Below the pieces are notes generated by a model that saw only the letters and a program-made list of their open reading frames with translations, did no database searches and was not told where the DNA came from. The translations under genes were made by a program, and so were the position numbers. Shown here piece by piece: positions 2,502 through 5,845 of a stretch of 57,814 nt of DNA. Within the stretch, counting starts at the first letter, position 1. Each line of letters begins with the position of its first letter. Location: NCBI RefSeq assembly GCF_000337095.1, contig NZ_AOIV01000024.1, positions 115,086-172,899 of the forward strand, read 5' to 3'. Source of the stretch: Halogeometricum pallidum JCM 14848. Lineage in GTDB: Archaea; Halobacteriota; Halobacteria; Halobacteriales; Haloferacaceae.

Positions 2502-2706
2502 CGTCGTCGCTTCTCGTCTGTCGGACTTAGGGCTGCCGCTCCACCTTTTTCCGCCTCGGGTCACACTTCGTGCGACCGCTCGGCGCAAAAATCTGGACCG
2601 AAAAACGACGCTCGCTCCCTCCGGTCGCTCGCGGTTCGACTGTTCGACTCCCCTTCGTCGGTACTTTTGCGGCGACGCTTTGCCCTCTGAACGGCTCTCT
2701 TCCCGC

Positions 2707-3084
2707 ATGAACGAACGTTCCCTGTTGGTCCGCGCGCTGTGGTTCCTCCTCGTCGGCTGGTGGGCCATCCCCGTCATCGTCAACGCCGCGTGGGCGCTGA
2801 ACGGGACCGTGGTTCTCCTTCCCCTCGGCATCAAGGTCATCAACCTCGTCCCGACGGTGCTGACGCTGATGGAGCCCCGTTCGCTGTCGGCACCGGATTC
2901 CGCGCGCGGGCAGCGCTCGCTCCCCGTCCGCGCCATCTACTTCGTCCTCGTCGGCTGGTGGCTCAGTTTCTTCTGGGCCAACCTCGCCGCGTTCCTGGCG
3001 ATTACGGTCGTCGGCCTCCCCGTCGCCTACTGGATACTCAACCGCCTGCCGTTCGTCACGTCGCTGTACCGCTTCGACGGCTGA
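2707..3084 (+). CDS. YccF-like inner membrane protein
   Basis: A 125-residue membrane protein made of two homologous halves, each starting with R-A-(L/I)-(W/Y)-F-x-LVGWW and ending in a hydrophobic segment with a PLG or VGLP turn, as in the duplicated YccF domain. About four membrane segments are visible. The function of YccF proteins is unknown. The start ATG at 2707 follows a T-rich box (TACTTTTG, about 2668-2676) at a spacing compatible with a short leader. The gene ends just before an abrupt drop in GC content at about 3085. Confidence 0.82.
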   Translation: MNERSLLVRALWFLLVGWWAIPVIVNAAWALNGTVVLLPLGIKVINLVPTVLTLMEPRSLSAPDSARGQRSLPVRAIYFVLVGWWLSFFWANLAAFLAITVVGLPVAYWILNRLPFVTSLYRFDG

Positions 3085-3132
3085 TCTACACGAAAAGAAT
3101 AGTTCTCTCGCGGTGTATTCACTGCTACCAGA

Positions 3133-3561
3133 ATGCATCCAAAAGATAAGGGAGAAAAAGTGGAGGCTGCAGTCCTCTCATCGTTAGTCATGCGAGACAT
3201 CGCCGTACTAACTCCATTCGGAGAGAATCATCGATACGATTTCGTTATCGAAATCGATGGCTCGTTCTATCGTCTGCAATGCAAAACTGGTCGTGATGAA
3301 GGCGACAAAATCATATTTAGCACGAGAAGCACGGGACCAAGCCGTACTGATCTCTCAACCAGCGACTATGACGACGATATCGACTTTTTCGCTGTTCGCA
3401 CACTAACTAACGACCGTGTGTATCTCGTCTCTGTGGACGAAGCATCCAGTAACGAAATGACTCTTCGAACCGCACCACCCGGCAACAATCAGTCAAAGGG
3501 TATAAACTGGGCTGACGAATACACTCTGGAGAGGCGGTTACCGCAACTTTCGGGCGCGTAG
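3133..3561 (+). CDS. PD-(D/E)XK nuclease, tRNA-abutting, likely acquired
   Basis: A 142-residue protein resembling the group I intron-associated PD-(D/E)XK endonucleases (PDDEXK_5 type, the family of the cyanobacterial tRNA-intron enzyme I-Ssp6803I). Motif residues are Glu8 or Glu11 in the first helix, Asp36 in YDFVIEIDG, and the Q-x-K signature Gln49/Lys51 in LQCKTGR. The gene is plainly AT-richer than its neighbours, with many AAA, GAT and ATC codons, which suggests transfer. Its last four codons lie inside the tRNA-Arg gene: the TAG stop is bases 8-10 of the tRNA. It has no intron of its own and no visible partner methylase. A role as a homing nuclease or a free-standing restriction-like enzyme is inference; an intact catalytic set suggests it is active. 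Confidence 0.78.
   Translation: MHPKDKGEKVEAAVLSSLVMRDIAVLTPFGENHRYDFVIEIDGSFYRLQCKTGRDEGDKIIFSTRSTGPSRTDLSTSDYDDDIDFFAVRTLTNDRVYLVSVDEASSNEMTLRTAPPGNNQSKGINWADEYTLERRLPQLSGA
3501..3508 (+). promoter_or_regulatory. TATA box of tRNA-Arg inside the nuclease gene
   Basis: TATAAACT lies about 45-50 bp before the tRNA-Arg 5' end, so transcription would start near 3528-3532 and give a leader of roughly 20 nt for RNase P to remove. The box lies within codons of the PD-(D/E)XK gene, which therefore has to preserve the tRNA promoter. Confidence 0.5.
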
Positions 3562-3655
3562 CTCAGTCGGACAGAGCGTCGGACTTCTATCCCCACGCAG
3601 ACTTCTGCTGGGGGAAGACATCCGATGGTCGCGGGTTCGAATCCCGTCGCGCTCG
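3552..3655 (+). tRNA. tRNA-Arg (anticodon UCU), intron-containing
   Basis: A full cloverleaf can be drawn. The acceptor stem is 3552-3558 with 3648-3654, D stem 3561-3564 with 3574-3577, anticodon stem 3579-3583 with 3621-3625, a five-base variable loop, and T stem 3631-3635 with 3643-3647 around TTCGAAT. The discriminator is G3655 and no CCA is encoded. The anticodon TCT is 3586-3588, reading AGA/AGG arginine codons. A 30-nt intron (3590-3619) sits at the canonical 37/38 position. The first ten bases are shared with the end of the upstream nuclease gene. Confidence 0.95.
3590..3619 (+). other. archaeal tRNA intron with bulge-helix-bulge
   Basis: The exon-intron junctions fold into a textbook bulge-helix-bulge. 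A 4-bp central helix pairs CTTC (3584-3587) with GAAG (3614-3617). It is flanked by three-base bulges TAT (3588-3590) and ACA (3618-3620), with an outer anticodon stem and an inner intron stem CCCCA/TGGGG (3591-3595 with 3609-3613) extended by GCAG/CTGC. The tRNA splicing endonuclease would cut after A3589 and after C3619. Confidence 0.92.
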
Positions 3656-3675
3656 CTCGGCCTTCGGCCTCGCTC

Positions 3676-3721
3676 GCGCGACGACCCCCCGATCACTTCG
3701 TTCGCGGGGGTTCCGTCGCGC
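3676..3721 (+). repeat. long inverted repeat downstream of tRNA-Arg
   Basis: GCGCGACG (3676-3683) followed by a C run pairs with a G run (3706-3710) followed by CGTCGCGC (3714-3721), with one or two unpaired bases. It is probably a hairpin in the tRNA trailer, and the 3' arm repeats the last bases of the tRNA (CCGTCGCGCTC at 3644-3654 and 3713-3723). It may be a terminator or processing element. A GGCC-TTC-GGCC mini-hairpin (about 3659-3669) lies between it and the tRNA. Confidence 0.55.
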
Positions 3722-3866
3722 TCTTCTCTTCGCTTGTTGAGACTGCCGAGCGATAGCGAGACGTGTCGGAACTGTCCCTTGCGGAACTCGAATCGGAGAG
3801 TGAACGGAGTGAGCGAATGCCCCGTCCCACTTTCGATATTCGACTGCCGCGTCCGGCGAGAACGGC

Positions 3867-3974
3867 CTACCGAATCTCCAATTCCCGTCCGCACCCCGGA
3901 CACGTCTCGTCGACTATCGTCACCTGCGCGTCGCAGTCCGGACAGAACTCCCGGTAACAGGCGCGGTCACCCAT
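3867..3974 (-). CDS. 35-residue zinc-finger micro-protein
   Basis: A very short gene read directly from the DNA: ATG at 3972-3974 on the minus strand, TAG at 3867-3869. The 35-residue product has two CPxC knuckles (FCPDCDAQ and TCPGCGRE) 15 residues apart, with acidic and hydrophobic residues between them, the form of many haloarchaeal single-domain zinc micro-proteins. A TATA-like box (TAACATAC on the minus strand, about 4003-4010) lies 30 bp upstream, consistent with leaderless transcription. Function unknown. Confidence 0.75.
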   Translation of the reverse strand: MGDRACYREFCPDCDAQVTIVDETCPGCGRELEIR

Positions 3975-4153
3975 GGCCGGGTCTACGGACGCGGCGGTGT
4001 TGTATGTTACTCCGTCTCATCGGGTACGGCGAGGCGCGCCGCTCTCGGTTGGCGTCGAAAGAAATCGGATTCGGTTCGGCCCGCGTGCCGACGGTCCTGC
4101 GACGATTCGCGGTCGGGTCGGATGTGGGTGAGGTGTGCCTGTTCAGACCGACT

Positions 4154-5845
4154 TCACATGGCACCGCCCATGCCACCCATACCGCCCATGCCGCCCATGC
4201 CGCCGCCCATTCCGCCGCCGCCGGGCGGCATCTCGTCGTCGCCGTCGTCGTCGCCGACCTGACCGCCGGAGAGGTCGCCCGCGGCGATGACGTCGTCGAT
4301 GCGGAGGATCATCACGGCGGCCTCGGTGGCCGACTCGATGGCCTGCGTCTTCACTCGGAGGGGTTCGACGACGCCCTCCTCCTCCATGTCGATGACTTCG
4401 CCCGTGTAGGCGTCGAGGCCGGCGGCGAACTCGCCGCCGTCGTGACGCGCGCGCAGGTCGACCAGCGAGTCGATGGGGTCGAGACCGGCGTTCTCGGCGA
4501 GCGTGCGCGGGATGACGTCGAGCGCCTCTGCGAACGCCTCGACGGCGAGCTGCTCGCGGCCGCCGACGGAGTCGGCGAACTCGCGAAGCTGCAGGGAGAG
4601 CTCGGTCTCGGGGGCGCCGCCGCCGGGCAGGACCGTCCCGTCGTCGAGCGTCGTCTTGACGACGCCGAGGGCGTCCACGATGGCGCGCTCCAGTTCGTCG
4701 ACGACGTGGTCGGTGCCGCCGCGCAGGATGAGCGTGACGGACTTGGCGTCGTCGACGTCCTCGACGAAGATGCGCTCGTCGCCGCCGATGTCCTTCTGGG
4801 AGACCGACCCGGCGAAGCCGAGGTCGTCTTCCTCGATGTCGTCGAGCGAGCCGACGACGCTGGCGCCCGTCGAGCGGGCGAGGCGCTTGAGGTCGGAGGA
4901 CTTCGCGCGGCGCACGGCCAGGATGCCCTCTTGGGCGAGGTAGTGCTGTGCCATGTCGTCGATACCGTCACCGACGAAGACGACGTCGGTGCCGATGTCG
5001 ACGAGCTGGTCGACCATCTCTTTCAGCTGCTTTTCCTCTTGGTCGAGGAACTGCTGAAGCTGGTCGGGGTCGGTGACGTTGACTTCGGCGTCGATTTCGG
5101 TCTCGCGGACTTCGAGGGCGCCGTCGAACAGCGCGACGTTGGCGTCCTCGACCATGTAGGGCATGTTCTCGTCGACGCGCTCTTTGTCGACGATGACGCC
5201 CTCGACGAGCTCCGAGTTGTCGATGGAGCCGCCGACGACCTTCTCGATGGAGACGTTGTCCGTGTCGACGTTGTCTTCATCGGCGACGGCCAGCACGGCG
5301 TCGACGACGAGTTCGGCGAGGAGGTCCTTCGCGGACTCCGCGCCCTTGCCCGTCATCGCCGTCGAGGCGATTTTGACGAGCGTCTCGCGGTCGTCTTCGG
5401 ATACGTCGATTGCCTCGTCCTCCAGCACTTCCTTGGCCTTCTCGGCGGCCTGGCGGAAACCCTGTGCGATGGTGGTCGCGTGGACGTCCTGATCGATGAG
5501 TTCCTCGGCCTGGTCGAGCAGTTCGCCGGCGATGACGACAGCGGTCGTCGTACCGTCTCCGACCTCGTCCTCCTGCGTTTCGGAGACTTCGACGATCATG
5601 TTCGCCGCCGGGTGGTCGATGTCCATCTCCTTGAGAATCGTCACGCCGTCGTTCGTGACGACGACCTCGCCGGAGTTGTCGACCAGCATCTTGTCCATCC
5701 CCTTCGGACCCAGCGTGGTCCGGACGGACTCGGCCACGGCCTTGCCGGCCGAGATGTTCATCGATTGCGCGTCCTTCCCTTGTGTGCGCTGGGAGTCGTC
5801 GCCCAGAATGATCATGGGCTGTCCCTGCTGCATTCGCTGAGACAT
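4154..5845 (-). CDS. thsA: thermosome (group II chaperonin) subunit
   Basis: A 563-residue group II chaperonin subunit. These form double-ring ATP-driven folding machines in the archaeal cytosol. Equatorial, intermediate and apical domains are complete: the [12 protein letters not shown] and [12 protein letters not shown] motifs, the GDGTTTAVV nucleotide-binding motif near the N-terminus, and the PGGGAPE motif near the C-terminal equatorial domain. The C-terminus is a low-complexity Gly-Met repeat, usual for haloarchaeal thermosomes. The ATG at 5845 starts [12 protein letters not shown] strong TATA element about 30 bp upstream supports a leaderless start rather than the in-frame upstream codons. 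It is monocistronic. Confidence 0.97.

Follow-up and report, generated by a model that had tools for sequence, protein, structure and literature searches.

Free-standing PDDEXK_5 nuclease genes of haloarchaea lie beside tRNA genes and covary with introns or recoded anticodon arms in the adjacent tRNA

In the window (the whole stretch of 57,814 nucleotides that was analysed, from Halogeometricum pallidum JCM 14848), a nuclease gene lies between a YccF gene and a tRNA-Arg(UCU) gene, all three on the + strand. The YccF gene (2707..3084), the upstream landmark common to the empty sites of related genomes, was assigned on a Pfam match just at its cut-off (E 6e-6). The nuclease ORF (3133..3561) encodes 142 aa and has a GC content of 0.49 versus about 0.67 in the flanks. 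It scored 118 bits against the Pfam PDDEXK_5 profile (PF11645, E 3e-34) versus the curated cut-off of 26.1, and dN/dS values of 0.04-0.25 indicate constraint on the protein. Alignment of 14 relatives revealed the invariant residues G7, E11, Y35, D36, Q49 and K51, among which D36 and Q49-x-K51 (codons at 3277..3285) make up a PD-(D/E)XK-type motif. The sole PDB match of the family profile was I-Ssp6803I (2OST, E 1.7e-13). The ORF ends with the codons TCG-GGC-GCG-TAG, 10 nt being shared with the tRNA gene, and the TAG (3559..3561) coincides with tRNA positions 8-10. ORF calls together with the Pfam and Rfam searches confirmed what the preliminary description had read here: a low-GC PD-(D/E)XK gene akin to the I-Ssp6803I family, placed between YccF and tRNA-Arg(UCU) and taking its last codons and its stop from the tRNA.

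The tRNA-Arg(UCU) gene (3552-3655, + strand) was recognised by Rfam (RF00005, 59.9 bits) and by ARAGORN with introns allowed; the default ARAGORN run missed it because of an intron. Exon 1 (3552..3589) and exon 2 (3620..3655) are separated by 30 nt inserted at 37/38 (3590..3619; ARAGORN i(39,30)), which lengthen the anticodon helix when folded. This intron, central to the interpretation given below, was absent from the preliminary description. By its shortness, its position at 37/38 and its predicted fold, it fits a putative archaeal pre-tRNA intron of the BHB type. No group I intron was detected in 2600-4200, where Rfam finds the tRNA only, and the nuclease ORF lies outside the tRNA intron. 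A TATAAA motif within the ORF (3501..3506, + strand), 51 nt before tRNA +1, is the probable promoter of tRNA-Arg. The Arg-linked nucleases of the window and of the loci L003, L230 and L246 all abut or overlap the tRNA, hence the tRNA promoter must be in the ORF. These four proteins have 47 residues in common, only seven of them specified by an identical codon in all four; five of the seven codons are consecutive (CAG TCA AAG GGT ATA), contain the TATA and lie 51-52 nt from the tRNA.

The nuclease is the only gene of the inserted stretch (3085-3551), in which no integrase was found, and a search of 3040-3700 revealed neither a direct repeat flanking the insert nor an att duplication. An integrase-type tRNA-targeting element was rejected on these grounds. 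The synteny of YccF and tRNA-Arg was also observed in genomes G039, G040, G164, G025 and G166. The comparison with relatives lacking the insert, which the preliminary description had recommended, could be made in two congeners, G039 (introned tRNA) and G040 (intronless tRNA), where a spacer of ~50 nt replaces the nuclease; the insert is therefore subject to presence/absence polymorphism. In G040 (locus L087), the tRNA-Arg 3' end is repeated shortly downstream of the tRNA in a copy resembling an att remnant, and a shorter piece of it recurs near window position 3715.

The proposed tie of the element to tRNA genes holds across an order and in phages. Homologs were found in 66 of 170 genomes of Haloferacaceae, and 75 of 80 loci, in a count that takes in related and not always independent genomes, have a tRNA gene at a distance of no more than 400 bp (chance expectation about 2%), nearly always in the same orientation. 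Four of the five unlinked loci represent a distant outgroup. A profile search of the order detected homologs in 197 of 392 genomes, and in its other families a tRNA gene was present no farther than 400 bp away at 43 of 47 loci, again partly from related genomes. Among 18 relatives on viral contigs, 14-15 flank a tRNA gene or are enclosed by two of them, most often within a phage tRNA array. Examples from named viruses come from HSTV-4 (next to tRNA-Asn), Pectobacterium phage My1 (where the gene overlaps tRNA-Ile) and Salmonella phage SM5.

The survey of distance and phase of the homologs hence supported tRNA adjacency, but not a shared stop phase. A stop at tRNA positions 8-10 was found in only four of about 145 loci (the window, L230, L039 and the phage contig L268), the frame of L003 runs further into the tRNA before it stops, that of L246 stops a single base ahead of the tRNA, and most relatives have a stop codon of their own. 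The borrowed stop, previously presented as a general design, is thus incidental. Targeting of tRNA 5' ends could not be upheld either: the genes may precede or follow the tRNA, and it is the anticodon arm of the neighbour that covaries with the nuclease, which makes the anticodon region, and not the 5' end, the likely target.

In a tree of 67 nucleases, the Asn, Lys, Arg, Pro and Asp groups formed according to the tRNA isoacceptor and not the host. The isoacceptor label changed five times on this tree, the minimum for six labels, compared with a mean of 36 after shuffling. Every isoacceptor group spans at least two host genera, and the Asn, Lys and Arg nucleases constitute one supported branch. 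Both an Arg and a Lys nuclease are present in the genome G164 alongside remnants of the Asn type, and its intact nucleases each fall into their own clade. The Pro-linked nucleases are often tandem two-domain fusions in frames of 271-388 aa (L041, L047-L049, L221, L255), and L255 shows four domain matches in 416 aa.

Pattern searches over the 170 genomes recorded introned and intronless anticodon arms. With the reservation that divergent tRNAs can escape such patterns (no clear Arg arm was obtained for G038 and G041, nor a clear Asn arm for G133 and G138), tRNA-Lys was introned at 9/9 nuclease loci versus 14/161 without the nuclease (p 3e-9), tRNA-Asn at 23/26 loci with an intact nuclease versus 19/144 without (p 5e-14), and tRNA-Arg at 2/2 versus 30/168. 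When genus and isoacceptor were combined into cells, all nine nuclease-bearing cells were introned versus 24 of 84 overall (p 4e-6). Nuclease loci of the other families gave introned Lys in 6/6 cases and introned Arg in 2/2; among their Asn-linked loci, five were introned, two more had an introned neighbouring CAU tRNA and one (L234) had neither. The rule is not strict, as in G108, G119 and G150 an apparently intact nuclease accompanies an intronless tRNA-Asn, and dN/dS gave no sign of relaxed selection in these three nucleases. Many introned tRNAs occur without a nuclease, which is expected after decay, yet weakens the case for causation. Tandem introned tRNA-Asn copies were noted in G027 (C28), G030 (C1) and G164 (C4), and decayed nuclease fragments between two Asn genes of opposite orientation in G164 and G044.

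The genus designated g21 offered a closer view of the Asn-linked nucleases. Here the nuclease is located between tRNA-Asn and a tRNA with the CAU anticodon (Ile or elongator Met), and Asn loci without the nuclease also exist, i.e., presence and absence at a homologous site. In many g21 genomes the core CTCG-CTNNTAA-CGAG is common to tRNA-Asn and the CAU tRNA. In all 20 genomes with both the nuclease and the Asn intron, the neighbouring CAU tRNA lacks this core and its CTCG stem, which is replaced by at least four stem forms, and a genome-wide search for the putative target core CTCGCTNNTAACGAG found no tRNA copy in any of them. In 50 genomes placed on a marker tree (RIO1+KH codon alignment), the nuclease changed 12 times, the intron 15 times and the CTCG stem 17 times. 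An intact nuclease was associated with the intron (Fisher p 9e-8), and in the phylogenetically controlled test, which amounts to 6-7 pairs, independent pairs stood at about 6:0 (median p 0.03). Once quantified, the variation of the CAU-tRNA stem also tracked the intact nuclease (p 7e-6 against the CTCG stem, independent pairs about 0:6); co-conversion of the neighbouring tRNA as well as selection could produce this pattern. Where the nuclease is disrupted (G110, G111, G116, G142), tRNA-Asn was introned in 0/4 cases versus 20/23 with an intact gene. Distances between g21 introns and between g21 nucleases were not significantly correlated (Mantel p 0.18).

The Pro-linked and part of the Asp-linked nucleases are accompanied by altered anticodon stems. 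Of 44 sampled genomes that lack a Pro nuclease, 34 have the tRNA-Pro(UGG) arm CGGGC-CTTGGGT-GCCCG. With arm classes and exceptions defined after inspection of the data, the Pro arm was non-standard in 18/18 genomes carrying the nuclease or its remnant versus 10/44 without (p 7e-9). The recodings take several different forms, mostly preserving pairing. In genus g6 the arm was recoded in 7/7 genomes with the nuclease versus 0/4 without, and the Pro loci of other families, a partly independent check, were non-standard in 10/10 cases. One Asp nuclease clade spanning five families goes with a CAACC..GGTTG arm in 17/18 cases, the exception being a long branch, and this arm is present in 2 of about 24 genomes without the nuclease. 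Two other Asp-linked clades keep the standard arm; comparison of their arms and acceptor stems did not reveal what might protect them. An acceptor-stem variant was considered as their immunity (10/10 versus 8/22), but this association is likely confounded by ancestry. Recoded Pro arms were also seen without an intact nuclease in G101, which keeps a nuclease remnant, and in the g21 genomes G111, G132, G142, G149 and G155; these are possibly scars of past invasion.

These observations raised the hypothesis, which we consider likely, of free-standing, isoacceptor-specific homing nucleases, each moving together with a tRNA allele that is immune to it; introns of archaeal tRNA genes would be one form of this immunity. 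The nuclease of the window would recognise the anticodon arm of an intronless tRNA-Arg(UCU) gene, the arm being the region reported as recognised by I-Ssp6803I. The 30-nt intron at 37/38 would split the target site and so confer immunity, and after its splicing the tRNA would stay functional. We infer that the nuclease would break the DNA of an intronless allele encountered by the cassette and that repair from the cassette would copy both the nuclease and the immune tRNA by co-conversion, the nuclease being the cause of the change in the tRNA and not its consequence. Other clades would act alike at Lys, Asn/CAU, Pro and Asp tRNA genes, with compensatory recoding of the anticodon stem in place of the intron in the Pro and some Asp clades. 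After fixation the nuclease could decay, and the intron or recoded stem may persist. Resistance of the host allele to its own nuclease is suggested by correlation, with G108, G119, G150 and the two standard-arm Asp clades as exceptions. The wider proposition, that the family drives tRNA intron gain and anticodon-stem rewriting in haloarchaea and that related phage and virus copies, each accompanied by an immune tRNA gene, displace host or rival tRNA genes, seems to us slightly more probable than its negation.

tRNA-cleaving toxins exist, and anticodon arms would covary with the gene also if the protein were an anticodon nuclease acting on tRNA, the variant arms protecting the tRNA itself. We find this exceedingly improbable: a spliced intron cannot protect the mature tRNA, yet it marks the presumed immunity in the Arg, Lys and Asn clades, and the solved member of the family (2OST) is a DNA homing endonuclease (PMC1995217). 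Since the intron would be spliced from RNA and would shield only the gene (or pre-tRNA), it argues for a DNA target. Linkage alone might be invoked instead, with tRNA loci as insertion hot spots and the introns and arm variants as independent neutral variation. tRNA genes are indeed common integration sites, related genomes have both traits in common by descent, and many introns occur without a nuclease; against this stand the match between nuclease clades and isoacceptors across genera, the several Pro recodings found with the nuclease but in none of the nuclease-free g6 genomes, and the persistence of the association in the genus-cell and independent-pair tests. Disrupted nucleases without the intron, and the lack of an integrase or flanking repeat at the window insert, likewise make mere linkage very unlikely.

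The nuclease might also serve defence and not homing, cutting in a restriction-like manner incoming viral or plasmid DNA in which a tRNA gene, or an att site derived from one, is unprotected, while the host's own tRNA gene would be immune through its intron or recoded arm. The immune self allele, the purifying selection, the integration of haloarchaeal proviruses mostly in tRNA genes (PMC8651126) and the tRNAs and related nucleases carried by viruses would all agree with such a role. Defence, however, would work without the gene being placed at most 400 bp from the immune tRNA and without isoacceptor-specific clades fixed at the cognate gene, and the patchy distribution and frequent decay resemble those of a selfish element; a defensive function is in our judgement rather improbable. 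PADLOC gave a weak match of the nuclease, to a model named homing endonuclease.

Among the closest known systems is I-Ssp6803I of the Synechocystis tRNA-fMet group I intron, of the same Pfam family and the sole structural relative by sequence. Its gene, however, resides inside a self-splicing group I intron, whereas in haloarchaea the gene stands on its own next to the tRNA and the intron here is a 30-nt one of archaeal pre-tRNA type. SegB of phages T4/T6 is likewise a free-standing nuclease of tRNA arrays, and T4-type SegB cuts within phage tRNA genes and copies the region (PMC13096335). SegB-type enzymes are GIY-YIG, phage-encoded and described as neighbours of tRNAs of many isotypes; the family described here is PD-(D/E)XK, archaeal-chromosomal, with one clade per isoacceptor and a paired, putatively immune tRNA allele. 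An archaeal LAGLIDADG endonuclease of 16S rRNA genes co-converts a neighbouring hairpin intron (e.g., Pog.S1213; PMC4496867), but there the target is rRNA and the gene lies within the intron, in contrast to a tRNA target and a gene outside the intron.

tRNA introns were proposed by Randau and Soll to block integrating elements (PMC3293823), and earlier proposals likewise had the intron protecting from a mobile element and arriving with it (PMC3293823, PMC4090602). Those proposals invoke integrases and att sites, while the agent proposed here is a nuclease encoded next to the tRNA gene and directed at the anticodon arm. One paper found nothing that directly connects disrupted tRNA genes with mobile elements (PMC3293823), and a review described the mechanism of intron transposition as unknown (PMC4090602). 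Searches of an open-access literature library revealed no description of the present system, an absence that does not prove novelty. If the hypothesis is true, it provides a concrete, testable agent for the gain and spread of archaeal tRNA introns, explains why sister species can differ in whether a given tRNA is introned, and unites tRNA introns with unusual anticodon stems as alternative responses to a single selective pressure. It would also extend the reported tRNA specificity of I-Ssp6803I to a large free-standing family, whose natural variants for several anticodons would be useful for studies on the evolution of target specificity.

Finally, several viral loci deserve mention. In HSTV-4, a haloarchaeal tailed virus (L303, MZ334501), the nuclease gene (1890-2426) directly follows tRNA-Asn, whose arm ACGAG-CTGTTAC-CTCGT differs from the host arm CCTCG-CTGTTAA-CGAGG. 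The HSTV-4 nuclease might cut the host tRNA-Asn gene while the virus supplies an immune tRNA. PDDEXK_5 genes occur inside tRNA arrays of bacterial phages (L265-L280, L305, L306), and in G142 a divergent homolog (L059, contig C3, 2289-3765) follows about nine predicted tRNA genes in a provirus-like setting.
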